Of a DNA stretch of 36,366 nucleotides, positions 21,115 to 31,702 are shown piece after piece. The DNA comes from a virus. Where the stretch lies: positions 1-36,366 of the IMG/VR virus record IMGVR_UViG_3300023172_000088; one strand, 5' to 3'. The notes under the pieces were generated by a model. The model searched no databases, was not told where the DNA came from, and saw only the letters and a list, made by a program, of their open reading frames with translations. A program made the position numbers and the translations under genes. How positions within the stretch are numbered: the first letter of the stretch is position 1; each line of letters begins with the position of its first letter.

Positions 21115-21599
21115 TACTTCCAGGCCCTGTATTTGGGATACTTTTTCCCACGTTTGTCAACAAATCTTTCTGTGGGTAATAACGAAATACTCGCCCAATC
21201 TTCATCGTCTGGAACTTTATATAGATTTCCAACACCAGAGTAAAAATATTTGTGCAAGGAATTTTTGGGTACACTTGCCCCTCTGGACTTATTTATTAGG
21301 CTTTTCGCAACGGCATCTCTATAATCTGGATTTATATAATGTAAGTTTGCACCAAGAAATCCATCTCTCAAAAATTCTAGGACAAATACTAGAGGTTGCA
21401 TGTCCCAAAAGTCATAGTTCTGTGGATATGCCGCACCATAAGAAAAGAAGACCAAACTCCCAACTTCAATCCAACCAGTATCACTTGTGCTGATGTCTGG
21501 ATCTTGCAGTCCAGAAAGGGACTCTTCTAGTTGAGCAATATACCAATCGGCACTCTTATTTTGTTTTCCTGCTTTTTGTTTGATTTCTTCTGCGATCAT
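21114..21599 (-). CDS. Tail-completion-like protein, possibly gp3
   Basis: The 161-aa product has WIEVGSLVFFSYGAAYPQ, MQPLVFVLEFLRDGFLG and NLHYINPDYRDAVAKSL. Its length is near that of T4 gp3 (176 aa, tail-tube terminator), and it sits next to gene 4 as gene 3 sits near 2 and 4 in T4. I cannot match residues to gp3 by eye, so the name is tentative. It is co-transcribed with gene 4 through an ATGA-type overlap. Confidence 0.6.
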   Translation of the reverse strand: MIAEEIKQKAGKQNKSADWYIAQLEESLSGLQDPDISTSDTGWIEVGSLVFFSYGAAYPQNYDFWDMQPLVFVLEFLRDGFLGANLHYINPDYRDAVAKSLINKSRGASVPKNSLHKYFYSGVGNLYKVPDDEDWASISLLPTERFVDKRGKKYPKYRAWK

Positions 21600-22042
21600 T
21601 TGATTCCTAGTTCGTCTTCGGTCATAATTTTGAATTCATAATTACGATCCGCACAAAACTCTTCCGCTGCCTTCCATTTTGCCTGATTTACTGCCCACAG
21701 TTCAACACTTCGAACCCAGGCCTTTGTTCTTTTCTTGGGATTTGTTGGGGGCATTTGAACTTCTTTCTTAGGTTTGATCTCAATGACCATAACCCTTCTT
21801 TTTCCCGTTGCGTCAATATACTTTACAAAAAAGTCAGGAAAATAACGATGATACCTATTATCTAGTGGAGATTTATACAGAATGCAGAATTCTTCAGATT
21901 GCCATTGGTATACACTCTCATTCAGATCACAGTACCTCATAAACTTTCGCTCCCAAAGTGACCTATAAATAATATTTGTAGGGTCGCCCTTGTATTTTTT
22001 GGGATACTCTGGTTTATATTTTCCTTTGTAGGACATATACAT
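21596..22042 (-). CDS. g4: Head completion protein gp4
   Basis: The 148-aa protein contains YKGDPTNIIYRSLWERKFM, HRYFPDFFVKYID and VMVIEIKPKKE, followed by VNQAKWKAAEEFCADRNYEF; the pattern follows T4 gp4 (150 aa) closely. The E..D..EIK residues form a PD-(D/E)XK nuclease-like site. gp4 acts at head completion after packaging, before tail joining. An in-frame ATG at 22036 is an alternative start. A minus-strand late-type promoter lies just upstream; no Shine-Dalgarno is seen. Confidence 0.93.
   Translation of the reverse strand: MYMSYKGKYKPEYPKKYKGDPTNIIYRSLWERKFMRYCDLNESVYQWQSEEFCILYKSPLDNRYHRYFPDFFVKYIDATGKRRVMVIEIKPKKEVQMPPTNPKKRTKAWVRSVELWAVNQAKWKAAEEFCADRNYEFKIMTEDELGIK
21963..21971 (+). 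promoter_or_regulatory. Late promoter CTATAAATA for the gene 54 operon
   Basis: CTATAAATA is a full T4 late-promoter match, lying within gene 4 on the opposite strand and about 98 nt before the gene 54 ATG. The gene 54-27 block needs a plus-strand promoter here, which supports it. The predicted start is near 21977. Confidence 0.6.
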
Positions 22043-23048: not shown

Positions 23049-23774
23049 ATGCCCTTACCAAAGATCTCAACCCCAACTTATGAGTTGACTTTACCCTCTA
23101 CTGGAAAGACTGTAAAGTTTAGACCTTTTCTAGTTAAAGAAGAAAAAATTCTAATTCTGGCATTAGAGAGTCAAGATACAAAACAAATTACTGATGCCAT
23201 CAAACAAGTATTGAAAGATTGTGTTCTTACTAGAGGAATCAAAGTAGAACAACTTCCTACATTTGACATTGAATACTTGTTCCTAAACATTCGTGGTAAG
23301 TCTGTTTCTGAATCTGTAGATCTTATCATCACTTGCGGAGATGACGGGGTAACGCAAGTACCAGTGAGTGTCTTTATTGATGAGATCGAAGTCGTAAAAG
23401 ATCCAGAACATACGCCTGATATTCGAATTGATAATGACATCATGATTCGAATGAAATATCCTTCGATGGAGGAATTCGTTAAAAACAACTTCACCGTAGA
23501 AGGCGATGATGTCAACGAAGTCGAACAATCCTTTGAAATCATTGCGTCGTGCATTGAACAGATTTATACTGAAGAAGACGCCTGGGCTAGCGAGGATATT
23601 AGTAAGAAAGAAATGGTTTCTTGGATTGAAGGACTGACCTCCGAACAATTCAAGAAGATTGAAAGATTCTTTGAGACTATGCCCAAACTTTCTCATACAA
23701 TGAATGTGAGAAACCCAAATACTGGCGAAAACAATACTGTCGTTCTGGAGGGATTGACGAGTTTTTTCGCTTAG
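23049..23774 (+). CDS. g26: Baseplate hub assembly protein gp26
   Basis: The 241-aa protein starts MPLPKISTPTYELTLPSTGK and continues KFRPFLVKEEKILI, the signature of the Pfam T4_baseplate family (T4 gp26, 208 aa). gp26 helps assemble the hub. The last codons read AGT TTT TTC GCT TAG and form a slippery site, with a downstream ORF in the -1 frame that stays open. The gene therefore probably makes two products: gp26 and a 303-aa extended form. Confidence 0.9.
   Translation: MPLPKISTPTYELTLPSTGKTVKFRPFLVKEEKILILALESQDTKQITDAIKQVLKDCVLTRGIKVEQLPTFDIEYLFLNIRGKSVSESVDLIITCGDDGVTQVPVSVFIDEIEVVKDPEHTPDIRIDNDIMIRMKYPSMEEFVKNNFTVEGDDVNEVEQSFEIIASCIEQIYTEEDAWASEDISKKEMVSWIEGLTSEQFKKIERFFETMPKLSHTMNVRNPNTGENNTVVLEGLTSFFA
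23747..23768 (+). promoter_or_regulatory. Programmed -1 ribosomal frameshift signal
   Basis: The in-frame heptamer T TTT TTC (23762-23768) is a perfect X XXY YYZ slippery site. GGAGGG (23747-23752) lies 9 nt upstream, as with the stimulatory internal Shine-Dalgarno of dnaX. After a -1 shift, reading continues CGC TTA GTA ATG into the next ORF with no stop until 23959. Confidence 0.78.
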
Positions 23775-23776
23775 TA

Positions 23777-23959
23777 ATGTCTCAGATGAATCTTGAGGCA
23801 TACTTTAGAATTAATTTCGCTCTCATGCAGTTCCATAAATACAGCTTGACAGAGATCGAAAATATGATGCCCTGGGAACGGGACATTTATGTAGGGTTGC
23901 TGAAACAGCATATTGAAGAAGAGAATCTCAAAGCACAACAAAGAGCTGCTAATCAGTAA
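23777..23959 (+). CDS. Tail assembly chaperone extension ORF, 60 aa
   Basis: The product (MSQMNLEAYFRINFALMQFH, then LTEIENMMPWERDIYVGLL) is a small helical domain of the type found as the frameshift-made C-terminal part of tail assembly chaperones. It has no ribosome site at normal distance from its ATG; GGAGGG lies 24 nt upstream. It is most likely translated as a fusion to gp26, or by re-initiation at TAGTAATG. The next genes are large, as expected if the chaperone serves tape-measure proteins. Confidence 0.8.
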   Translation: MSQMNLEAYFRINFALMQFHKYSLTEIENMMPWERDIYVGLLKQHIEEENLKAQQRAANQ

Positions 23960-25701
23960 TGAAACTTACCTCCATTAGACCAAAAAGTATACTAAGAAGA
24001 GGTTCCAAGAAAATTGGAGCAAAGACTCTTCGTGGTGGTTCTCGGGCTGGTCTCTTTGGTGGTAAGTCTATTGGATCTGCACTTGGAAATGCATTTAAGG
24101 GCAAGGTAAAGGCTGCTCCTAATGGACTAGGTTCAGTCATTCAGAATATCTCCCAAACAGTTGGTGGTGGAGATCAGTCCAACGTAGTAAATATCAACAA
24201 GTTTATTCAGCAGAAGGTTTCTGACGCGCTGAGTAAGACAGGATCACTTTCCGCTCAGGTGCAGATGCCTCAGTTGGATGGTATCCTCAATGCCTTTGGA
24301 GGTATTGCAGATTATATGAGAAGTCTTGCTGATCCTTCAGCATTGAGTGACTTCTCTCGTGGAATAGATTCTATTAATGAATCTTTAGAGAAAACCACCG
24401 ATCTTGTAGTAAAGGTTAGATCCTTTATCAAGAAACTTGTCAAAGATCTTCGTAAAGTAAAAGGTAAAGGAGGAGATGGTGGTGGTGGCCTTCTGGGTGC
24501 CGCTGCTCTAGGATTGGGTGGTGCCGCTGCTGCTGGAGGTGCTAAGAAAGGGTTATTAAAGAAGGGTGGAGGTGCCCTTGCGAAATTCTTTGGTGGAAAG
24601 AAAGGTAAGTTGCTCCTTGGTCTTGGTGGACTGGGATTGATTGGTGCTGGTGCAGCGAGTGCATCAGAAGGTCCTACTGGGGAACCAATTGAAATTCCAC
24701 CTGCAATTCCAGAAGAAGATGTAAATATCTTTAATAAGACTGTAGATGATTTTAGTAAGTTCGTAAAGAAACTGCTTGAGGCTCCACCAAAACCTCCTGG
24801 AAAGGGATCTGAACAAAAACCAGCTCCAAGTTCTTCAACTCCCACCAGTTCTCCTATGAGTTCTGGTCCCAGTGGACCAGTTGCTGGTGTTACTACTCCA
24901 GAGGCAAAAGCCGCGATTCAAACTATCACTCAATTGGAAGGGACTTCTGGACCAGGTGGTTATAGTAGATGGTTCGGTGATCGTCAGGGTGAGATGAAGT
25001 ATGGTGATATTACTGGAAAGACACTTCAAGAAGTAGATGATCTCCAGACACGGTTCTTACAGGATCCACAGTCACAATTTACAGATAGGAGTGGAAAGAC
25101 TCAGAAATCTGCCGCAGTTGGTGCAGGACAGTTTACTTACCTCTTGGAACATGCTAGGAGGATGGATCCTAACGTAGATATTACCAAACAGACTTTTAGT
25201 GAAGAATATCAGAATAGACTTATGATGTTCCTTGCCAGAGAGAGGGGAGTCGATCTCAATAAACCTCTTACAGAGGCAGACATGACGAAGTTGGGTGGTG
25301 TATGGGCGAGTATGACACCACAATACAACCAGACATCTAGAACCGCAGCTCAAAGTTTGCAGGTTTACAATGAAAATCTTAAGAAGGTTAGGGCTCAAGG
25401 TGGAGTCTTACCACAGACTCCAGAGACTATGATTGACCCCGCAGGACCACAATCGAGTGCTGCAACTTCGCCCGAGACTATCGGTACGGTTGCTCAGGTT
25501 CCACAAACTCAGGTGGGTCAAAATAATGTTCAGGTAATCAATACAGGTATGGGAGATCAAGGTTCTGGTCAAATTGATCCCTCCAATGTTCCTGCACCAT
25601 CTGTTGCCGCTAATACAGTTCCATTCCATATGCCTTATGATGAGGATAATATGGAAAGACTGGGAACCATTAGTCTCTATAACCTAATCAGTGCAAGCTA
25701 G
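23959..25701 (+). CDS. Hub/tape-measure-like protein with lysozyme-like domain, 580 aa
   Basis: The N-terminal half is basic, Gly-rich and helical, with a hydrophobic GLLGAAALGLGGAAAAGG stretch near residue 180 and another near 215. A Pro/Ser linker near 275-305 leads to a domain at about 313-475: TQLEGTS with Glu327 as likely catalytic acid, RWFGDR, and SAAVGAGQF, LLEHARRMDP and FLARERGVDL, which follow the lambda-type transglycosylase/muramidase plan. The size equals T4 gp29 (590 aa). I infer a tail lysin joined to a tape-measure or hub protein. Confidence 0.72.
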   Translation: MKLTSIRPKSILRRGSKKIGAKTLRGGSRAGLFGGKSIGSALGNAFKGKVKAAPNGLGSVIQNISQTVGGGDQSNVVNINKFIQQKVSDALSKTGSLSAQVQMPQLDGILNAFGGIADYMRSLADPSALSDFSRGIDSINESLEKTTDLVVKVRSFIKKLVKDLRKVKGKGGDGGGGLLGAAALGLGGAAAAGGAKKGLLKKGGGALAKFFGGKKGKLLLGLGGLGLIGAGAASASEGPTGEPIEIPPAIPEEDVNIFNKTVDDFSKFVKKLLEAPPKPPGKGSEQKPAPSSSTPTSSPMSSGPSGPVAGVTTPEAKAAIQTITQLEGTSGPGGYSRWFGDRQGEMKYGDITGKTLQEVDDLQTRFLQDPQSQFTDRSGKTQKSAAVGAGQFTYLLEHARRMDPNVDITKQTFSEEYQNRLMMFLARERGVDLNKPLTEADMTKLGGVWASMTPQYNQTSRTAAQSLQVYNENLKKVRAQGGVLPQTPETMIDPAGPQSSAATSPETIGTVAQVPQTQVGQNNVQVINTGMGDQGSGQIDPSNVPAPSVAANTVPFHMPYDEDNMERLGTISLYNLISAS

Positions 25702-29164: not shown

Positions 29165-31702
29165 ATGGATGATACCCTTTTAAAGTCTCAATTTATGGGC
29201 AGAGACCAATTCACTTGGTGGATTGGTCAAGTTGCTCATCCAAAATATTGGAGAGATGGTAAAACCGAATTAAAAACATCCAACAGTGATAAAGAACTGG
29301 GGATGAGTTGGGCTTATCGTTGTAAAGTCCGCATCATTGGGTATCATCCCTTTTCTGGCAATGAACTTCATGATAAAGATTTGCCTTGGGCACATGTGAT
29401 GGTTCCTGCTAGTCAGGGAACTGGTCATGGTGCTCTTGGTGAGTCTAGTCAAATGGTCGGTGGAGAAACTGTATTTGGGTTTTTCCTTGATGGGGATGAG
29501 GGACAACAACCAGTAGTTTTTGGTGCTCTTCATAGAAATCCAAATGCAGTAAGTAAGATCGGAACTAAAGAAGTAGAGAAAGAAGGTAGTTCTAGATTCA
29601 AAGCATATTCTGGCATCGGAGCACAAAAAGCATTGAACTCTGGAATTACCCAGAGACCTCCCAAAAATGACACTGATTTAAAAACTCCAACTGAGAATGC
29701 CAGTACAGAAAGAAAACCTACTGGTGGGGCATCTAAAAACCCAGATCAAATCTATCCAGAGAGTGATGCTGAAACTGCATTTGCTGGTGGTGGAACTCAG
29801 GCAACTATTCCCAATGGTTGTGAAAGTAACTTTTTAAGTGAAATTACTAATGCGATTAGAAGTTTTATCGCAACTACTAACAGTCTTACAGCATTCCTTG
29901 GGGTTTACGTTGATGCTGTGCAGAATTTCGTCCAAGATATTGGTAGACTGGTAAGTAAAACTGGCGCCATTATTTTGGGTATCATGAAGAAGGTTTTCAA
30001 TAACCTTCGTGATCGACTGATGAAGTGGTTGGGTAAGAGATTCAGAGATTTTATTGCACTTTTTGTGCCCGAACCTCAACAACAACCAATTGCTAATGCA
30101 ATTAAGAAAATCATGGATACAATTTTTTGTATCTTTGAGAAACTTGGTATCAATGCTCGTAAGTTTATTGAAAACTTCCTTAAAAGTATCATTAACAAGA
30201 CTATTGCTGGTCCTCTTTGTGCCGCTGAACAGGCAACTGCTGCGTTAGTTTCTGCACTCCTAAAGGCACTTGATGGTCTACTTGAACCGATTATGGAGGG
30301 TATCAGTTGGTTGACTGGTGCTCTTGGAAAAGTCAGTGGTGCCTTGAGACAAGTATCTGCTTACGCAAACCAGATTCTAAGTTTCCTGGATTGTGACAAG
30401 TTAAGTTGCAGAAAAGTTACCGACTGGACTTCTGGTTGGGGACTTTCTACTCAACCAGCAAACAATCTTTCTAGTATGTTGGATAAGGTTTCCATCATGG
30501 ATGGTCTTATCACAAATGGTCAGTCGATGACTCTCGATCAACTTGCTGCAGAAGGATCTAATTTCTCCTTCCTTACTATTGTTGGTGGAGAGTATGCTGG
30601 ATTTATCGAGTGTAACAATAAGAGAGATAATCCTACATCGCAAGATGATATTGGTATCACTCCACCAGGATTTATTTTCCCCAAATGTATTCCACCAAAA
30701 GTTGAATTCGTTGGAGATGCCACTGTTGCAGCAGAAGGAGTGCCCATTGTTGCTGTGGATGGATCTATTCTTGCAGTTGTAATTACTAATCCTGGATCTT
30801 CATATGATGAAGCTCCTACAGTTGCTGTCATTGATAAGACTAACCATGGTGGTGGTGCGGATCTAGAGGCAATCCTCGATTCAAATGGAAGAGTTGTTAA
30901 TGTTGTTATCAGAGATCCTGGATTTGGTTATTGTCAAACATCTCTTGGTGATGTTATTGGATTACCTGATCAATTGCCAGGTCCAACCACTGGCCAAACC
31001 GATCCTGATATAACTCCTCCAGTTATATCTGTTCTCACTCCACCAGATAATTCTGTTGGTGTTTCTACCTTAACTTGTTTCCAATTTGAGTTTAGTGAAC
31101 CAATTCAAAGAGGATCTGGTAAAGTCACCATCATTGAGACATTATCCAATCAAGTTCATGATTCTATTGACGTAGTTGATAGGGATAAAGTAGAATTTGT
31201 TAACAGCAATACTATTAAAGTTTGTCCAACAACTCCACTTTCTCCAGAAACTGAGTATCATATCAATATTACTCAAGGGGCATTCACAGATAACAGTGGA
31301 AATCTCTATGCTGGTATTGCTAATACAACAACATATAATGTCACAACAACTGTCATTGCTGGAGTAAGTAGTGTTCCTGTTGGCATTGTTACCGATGTAT
31401 ATGTTGATCGCCCTGGTCTTGGATATACTGATGGTGACTTTGGTCAATATGGAAATTGTACTTTCGATTTCGTTTTGAATCCTCAAGGATCTATCATTGG
31501 TATTAAGAATCTTACTTGTACCGATAGATTCGAGACCCGCCCAGATATCACAATAAATACGAATACTGGGACGGGAGCAGATCTGTTAGCCGTTACTTCT
31601 TACAAACCAAACACGACCGTTATCACTACTACTCTTGGACCTGATGAACTCAAGGCAAGAGGAATTGCTATCATTAACAAAGTTCAATGTCCTGGACGAT
31701 AA
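29165..31702 (+). CDS. g5: Baseplate hub OB-fold protein, gp5-like without lysozyme
   Basis: The 845-aa protein starts with the gp5-type OB-fold (KVRIIGYHPFSGNELHDKDL, PWAHVMVP, VFGFFLDGD, PVVFGALH). A long helical region follows (about 220-430), then beta modules at about 521-596 and 736-830 sharing PG(S/L)xY and GADL patterns, and an Ig-like domain at about 615-728 (PPVISVLTPPDNSVGV, LSPETEYHINI, FTDNSGN) of Big_5 type. T4 gp5 (575 aa) carries a lysozyme domain and a beta-helix; neither is visible here. Lysis functions appear moved to the 23959 and 25706 genes. Confidence 0.8.
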   Translation: MDDTLLKSQFMGRDQFTWWIGQVAHPKYWRDGKTELKTSNSDKELGMSWAYRCKVRIIGYHPFSGNELHDKDLPWAHVMVPASQGTGHGALGESSQMVGGETVFGFFLDGDEGQQPVVFGALHRNPNAVSKIGTKEVEKEGSSRFKAYSGIGAQKALNSGITQRPPKNDTDLKTPTENASTERKPTGGASKNPDQIYPESDAETAFAGGGTQATIPNGCESNFLSEITNAIRSFIATTNSLTAFLGVYVDAVQNFVQDIGRLVSKTGAIILGIMKKVFNNLRDRLMKWLGKRFRDFIALFVPEPQQQPIANAIKKIMDTIFCIFEKLGINARKFIENFLKSIINKTIAGPLCAAEQATAALVSALLKALDGLLEPIMEGISWLTGALGKVSGALRQVSAYANQILSFLDCDKLSCRKVTDWTSGWGLSTQPANNLSSMLDKVSIMDGLITNGQSMTLDQLAAEGSNFSFLTIVGGEYAGFIECNNKRDNPTSQDDIGITPPGFIFPKCIPPKVEFVGDATVAAEGVPIVAVDGSILAVVITNPGSSYDEAPTVAVIDKTNHGGGADLEAILDSNGRVVNVVIRDPGFGYCQTSLGDVIGLPDQLPGPTTGQTDPDITPPVISVLTPPDNSVGVSTLTCFQFEFSEPIQRGSGKVTIIETLSNQVHDSIDVVDRDKVEFVNSNTIKVCPTTPLSPETEYHINITQGAFTDNSGNLYAGIANTTTYNVTTTVIAGVSSVPVGIVTDVYVDRPGLGYTDGDFGQYGNCTFDFVLNPQGSIIGIKNLTCTDRFETRPDITINTNTGTGADLLAVTSYKPNTTVITTTLGPDELKARGIAIINKVQCPGR

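Follow-up and report, generated by a model that had tools for sequence, protein, structure and literature searches.

A probable −1 ribosomal frameshift between gene 26 and the gp51 frame in T4-like phages

A ribosome reading gene 26 in the window, the whole 36,366-nucleotide stretch of DNA from a cyanobacterial virus analysed here, very probably slips −1 near the end of the gene and thereby makes a longer tail chaperone. A stimulated −1 frameshift that yields a minor gp26-gp51 fusion beside the short gp26 is the best explanation of the locus, and one that is held with high confidence. The sequence elements are present and conserved among relatives, the −1 frame is coding, and the short and long products are homologous to T4 gp26 and T4 gp51, respectively. 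The assignment of gp26 and gp26-51 as a TAC-N and TAC-NC pair, comparable to lambda gpG/gpGT, is supported by the sequence comparisons described below.

Layout of the gene 26/gp51 locus

Gene 26 (23,049-23,774, plus strand) encodes 241 amino acids, the putative G-like short form TAC-N, and matches PF12322 (T4_baseplate; E=1.6e-73, 247.5 bits against a curated cut-off of 24.5) and PHROG 150 (E=2.7e-80). Its 3' end reads CTG GAG GGA TTG ACG AGT TTT TTC GCT TAG, with the zero-frame TAG stop at 23,772-23,774. The slippery heptamer T TTT TTC (23,762-23,768, plus strand), the candidate −1 frameshift site, is in the phase X XXY YYZ, its first T being the third base of AGT. A preliminary description of this DNA had placed the heptamer in frame near the gp26 stop, as is the case, and two codons before it; a single codon, GCT, intervenes. 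The GGAGGG motif, a candidate Shine-Dalgarno-like stimulator, was correctly located: 9 nt separate it (23,747-23,752, plus strand) from the heptamer.

After the slip the frame would continue as CGC TTA GTA ATG and stop at 23,957-23,959. This T-like extension (TAC-C; gp51; 23,768-23,959, plus strand) comprises 63 codons and a stop, and matches PHROG 634 (E=1.1e-26) and the C-terminus of PHROG 150. As had been proposed, the −1 frame runs openly into a 60-aa ORF, and the predicted fusion of 240 amino acids with a further 63 (RLVMSQ...) indeed totals 303. The 60-aa ORF (23,777-23,959, plus strand), which could be annotated as gp51, itself matches PHROG 634 (gp51) and the C-terminal part of PHROG 150. 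Its ATG, 2 nt past the gp26 stop, is base-paired within a predicted hairpin and is probably not the main start; the earlier claim that this ORF lacks a properly spaced ribosome site is borne out, no Shine-Dalgarno-like site being found near ATG 23,777 in the window. The predicted RNA stem-loop spans 23,773-23,804 on the plus strand (MFE −10.8 kcal/mol), with an aligned core that pairs 23,777-23,783 with 23,795-23,801.

The following account of whether and how often ribosomes shift, of what each stimulator contributes and of how the proteins interact is inferred from this arrangement. Most ribosomes would read gp26 to the TAG and produce the short chaperone TAC-N. A minority would be held up at T TTT TTC by the joint action of the stem-loop ahead and of GGAGGG paired to 16S rRNA, slip one base back, and read the gp51 frame to produce the 303-aa TAC-NC. 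The short form may coat the length-setting or hub protein of the tail and keep it soluble, and the C-terminal gp51 part may bring in subunits of the tail or hub, by analogy with the lambda gpG/gpGT pair.

The large gene directly 3' of the gp51 frame (23,959-25,701, plus strand, 580 aa; PHROG 90, an endolysin-like segment, E=9.4e-22) occupies a tape measure/hub position. The locus had been described as lying just before tape-measure-like genes. In HTVC008M and Cr30 a gene close by carries a tape measure annotation; in the window, sequence comparison did not bear the description out, the next ORF having no detectable similarity to T4 gp29.

Conservation of the heptamer and its putative stimulators

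At the DNA level, Megablast of the locus matched no phage record, and relatives came from protein searches. The 80 IMG/VR relatives read first comprise one protein identical to that of the window (L001) and others of 59-69% identity, and all except L035 carry TTTTTTC just 5' of the stop. The heptamer and an open −1 frame were also found in 17 of the 18 named phages first examined (S-RIM2, P-SSM7, P-SSM2, ACG-2014d, S-CAM1, Melnitz-3, S-H34, Cr30, Ochrobactrum OC, Stenotrophomonas BUCT608, Cronobacter LPCS28, Aeromonas 65, phiM9, OLIVR5, nt-1, HTVC008M and Milchi), and likewise in AS-yj, pf16, D480 and Aeh1, where gp26 ends in GAT TTT TTC GAC TGA. The heptamer in the named phages is T TTT TTC or T TTT TTT, and in phiM9 T TTT TTG. 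The full collection of 191 gp26 loci covers phages of Kyanoviridae, Pelagibacter, Caulobacter, Rhizobiales, Stenotrophomonas, Aeromonas and Vibrio. The heptamer noticed at the end of gene 26 proved to be kept as T6N, in phase and at the equivalent place, in 188 of the 191 (175 TTTTTTC, 12 TTTTTTT, 1 TTTTTTG), and the −1 frame that follows stays open for 56-68 codons. The zero-frame stop lies 0, 3 or 6 nt 3' of the heptamer in these 188 loci, and the −1 ORF is open in every complete locus that carries it. The three loci without a heptamer are L035, L184 and Vibrio D510. L184, an HTVC008M-like contig with 99% identity, is scored in this way because its gp26 frame has an early stop, which is probably a sequencing or assembly error.

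Codon statistics were calculated for 129 gp26 sequences dereplicated at <85% identity. The codon that precedes the Phe-Phe pair specifies Ser, Asp, Ala, Asn or Gly, and its third base is T in 129/129, where codon usage predicts 81 (log10P −26.8); of the two Phe codons, the first is TTT in 129/129 against a background of 0.69 (log10P −21). These P values assume independent genes and are overstated, as the genes are related. The other Phe-Phe pairs of the same genes provide an internal control, in which T TTT TTY occurs in 2 of 135. T6 runs are common in the AT-rich window, with dozens over its two strands, so the heptamer is weak evidence in a single sequence, and this abundance speaks for an accidental T run at the gp26 end, by chance or as a sequencing artefact. 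Across relatives we regard the heptamer as decisive: its conservation in 188 loci, recovered independently from isolates and from many metagenomes, together with the codon statistics, refutes chance or artefact, the probability of which is negligible.

The upstream spacing, which had been likened to that of dnaX, recurs: GGAGG or GAGGG ends 9-10 nt 5' of the heptamer in 98 of the 129 representatives. The Glu codon within GGAGGG is GAG in 98 of 118 Glu-Gly pairs at this site, compared to 13 of 44 elsewhere in gp26 and a background in which GAG makes up 29% of Glu codons. The synonymous-site constraint at the heptamer and at this GAG supports frameshifting.

Folding of the 50 nt starting 5 nt past the heptamer was compared to dinucleotide shuffles. 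The mean z-score over 127 loci is −2.19, and control segments of gp26 gave −0.11 and −0.44. In the clade of the window, alignment columns 12-23 pair with columns 33-44, forming standard pairs in 81.9% of cells (26-45% in slid controls), with 28 changes on both sides of the stem and a covariation of 0.177 compared to 0.094 ± 0.008 in shuffles (0/500). At pair 21-35, the second base of one codon changes the amino acid, and the synonymous third base of another codon changes with it. In a second clade the hairpin is a different one, of 5 bp, which shows covariation of its own and likewise exceeds controls. RNAalifold gave no consensus for a 60-sequence alignment, and the case for the hairpin accordingly rests on the z-scores of single sequences and on counted pairs. 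The hairpin of the window itself has a modest z of −1.35 on 53 nt; in view of this score and of the missing consensus, the downstream hairpin is graded as likely but unproven.

The upstream Shine-Dalgarno-like element, the heptamer and the covarying hairpin likely complete a dnaX-like cassette. The frameshift signal of E. coli dnaX likewise consists of a Shine-Dalgarno-like site, about 10 nt upstream, a heptamer with six identical bases, and a stem-loop a few nucleotides downstream. The two differ in that the dnaX heptamer is A AAA AAG and that of the window is of the U type; the dnaX shift yields a shorter protein. Slippage of RNA polymerase on the T6 tract, which could also produce the fused frame, would account for a homopolymer signal and for the T7 tract seen in 12 loci. 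Transcriptional slippage usually requires longer runs, however, and the mostly exact T6C, the fixed phase X XXY YYZ, the spaced Shine-Dalgarno-like site and the hairpin point to ribosomal slippage instead, so that a transcriptional origin is highly improbable.

Fusion versus a separate gp51

In 26 of 127 dereplicated loci, the first 12 or more codons past the heptamer include no ATG, GTG or TTG, although this start-less stretch is conserved in sequence (R[IL]AL.H..L..YY..NF...); the gp51 segment of these loci would therefore be explained only by frameshifting. In 87 of the 127 an ATG lies 2-4 codons past the heptamer, which, like the ATG 2 nt past the gp26 stop in the window, would permit coupled termination-reinitiation, with gp51 a separate 60-aa protein started at ATG 23,777 and the T run incidental. 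None of these 87 ATGs is preceded by a Shine-Dalgarno-like 4-mer, whereas such a 4-mer precedes gp26 in 35 of 128 cases and the next gene in 16 of 91. The ATG of the window is moreover buried in the predicted stem, the long form of T4 is covalent, and reinitiation leaves the invariance of the heptamer unaccounted for. Reinitiation at this locus is thus judged very unlikely, if less remote than polymerase slippage. The tail-chaperone frameshift fusion that was originally proposed gains support from the conserved heptamer, the open −1 frame, the start-less loci and the covarying hairpin; protein or ribosome-profiling evidence of the fusion was not found in the literature searched.

Two Vibrio phages do fit reinitiation. 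D510 (L093, 2190-2230) and K413 (L205) read TCA CTT TTC AAG TAATG, in which the gp26 stop overlaps an ATG of the gp51 frame; the heptamer is absent, both ORFs are intact, and the family is present as a single copy. In these phages gp51 may come from reinitiation or from a slip of a non-standard kind. A broken heptamer beside two intact ORFs, which the preliminary description had named as an observation that would count against frameshifting, does therefore exist, among the loci read only in this pair, and with TAATG in its place. A search of viral contigs with the D510 gp26 returned no relatives.

L035 (3700-3730) is 2 nt shorter at the slippery site (TCTTTTTGGTTAGG), which places gp26 and gp51 in one frame; its protein is 92% identical to that of L021 and reads straight into gp51. 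It is either an assembly error or a natural fusion, which would favour the fused product as the explanation of the locus. The +1 frame of L035 meets a TAG at once, and a short form could come from a slip in the opposite sense. A scan for a second fusion of this type returned L101 as its lone result, which was rejected as an unrelated contig.

T4 gp26 and gp51 and other known systems

Both T4 gp26 (215.6) and T4 gp51 (177.5) score against PF12322 over the full model. The match to PHROG 150 reaches position 235 in T4 gp26 and position 280 in T4 gp51, which also matches PHROG 634. The family is present in one copy in each frameshift phage searched (nt-1, Aeromonas 65, S-RIM2 and P-SSM2) and in two copies in T4, genes 26 and 51, the second weak by the profile used (E 0.02) and firm by Pfam. 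T4 gene 26 ends in GAG TTC TTT GAG TTA CTA TAA (protein ...GLKEFFELL) and has no T6 heptamer. Given the two family copies, their differing reach along PHROG 150 and this missing heptamer, sequence comparison indicates that T4 encodes its short and long forms in two genes, gp26 ending at the shift point and gp51 being full-length. They are homologous to the unshifted and shifted products of the window, and differ from them in being two separate divergent genes rather than one shifted gene. These paralogues support the suggestion that gp26 and gp51 are the T4-like counterpart of G/GT. Alignment of the fusion to T4 gp51 by hhalign gave 80% probability and was poor around the junction, the Pfam and PHROG profiles being clearer.

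T4 gp26 and gp51 appear among the hub assembly chaperones in PMC3004832. Compared with other gp51 proteins, cyanophage gp51 was described as only about 20% as long, without about 200 N-terminal residues (Sullivan et al. 2010, PMC3037559), and gp51 as 'missing' in Aeh1 (PMC3037559). Both observations would be explained because the N-terminus is gp26, joined by frameshifting, and Aeh1 has the heptamer and an open −1 frame.

Tentatively, and with somewhat less than even confidence, the sequences may be read as showing that the T4 superfamily inherited a stimulated −1 frameshift from its ancestor and replaced it in at least three separate ways, by duplication in T4, by TAATG in D510/K413 and by a 2-base deletion in L035, the cyanophage cassette being a dnaX-like three-part signal whose hairpin covaries while coding.

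AlphaFold2 models have a pLDDT of 84 for the gp26 of the window and 87 for the L035 fusion, the latter with a confident gp26 domain, a low-confidence linker and a helical C-terminal part. Foldseek against the PDB gave no significant match. The match of gp26 with the highest probability is the HK97 gp13 TAC (2ob9; probability 0.85, 61 columns, 2.5 Å) but with E=0.87, and the fused model reached a probability of at most 0.35; a likeness of the predicted gp26 fold to the HK97 TAC is a hint only. No solved relative was found by a sequence search of the PDB, and NCBIfam had no model.

The slippery site of lambda is G GGA AAG and thus differs from the T TTT TTC of the window. In other respects lambda gpG/gpGT and the long-tailed phage family (Xu, Hendrix & Duda 2004) resemble the window locus, with a −1 slippery site near the end of a short ORF, an overlapping second ORF and a long minor fusion. 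The frameshift products of long-tailed phages are absent from the virion, and G-T frameshifting was described in a 2016 review as widespread 'except T4' (PMC5009743). Searches of the window proteins against Pfam and PHROGs hit no lambda-type chaperone family.

Vladimirov and colleagues reportedly found frameshifting to be conserved in several T4-like groups, with T4 using genes 26 and 51. Their study of the TAC-N/TAC-NC of T4-like phages (Vladimirov, Gautam & Davidson 2022, Virology 566:9-15) is cited by both the Adele paper and PRFect, and is the source given for poly-T slippery sequences in T4-like TAC-N genes (PMC12846349) and for separate short and long genes in some T4-like phages (PMC10274946). 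As conveyed by such citing papers, it rests on the same short/long chaperone idea as the window locus, and chaperones made by frameshifting had thus been reported from T4-like phages by 2022; the locus is one more case, with good support, of a kind that is not new. A description of the Shine-Dalgarno-like element and covarying hairpin was not found in the literature searched, in which Vladimirov et al. 2022 was represented by the papers that cite it.

The gp51 segment is annotated from internal ATGs or unannotated in S-RIM2, P-SSM7, ACG-2014d, S-CAM1 and Aeh1 (L081, L082, L084, L085 and L210), and is probably truncated or missing in many more phage records. If frameshifting is confirmed, a joined CDS would be correct for the affected gp51 records. 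T4, the textbook exception, would become a case of two forms split into two genes, and the lambda G/GT stoichiometry model would therefore be testable by T4 genetics.

Two further features of the window lie outside the gene 26 locus. The product of 21,596-22,042 (minus strand) matches PHROG 218, 'head closure' (gp4-like), and the Pfam TnsA-like endonuclease N terminal domain (E=3.3e-22). Positions 29,165-31,702 encode a baseplate hub/tail lysozyme-like protein (PHROG 1922) with a bacterial Ig-like domain, Big_5 (E=1.9e-12).
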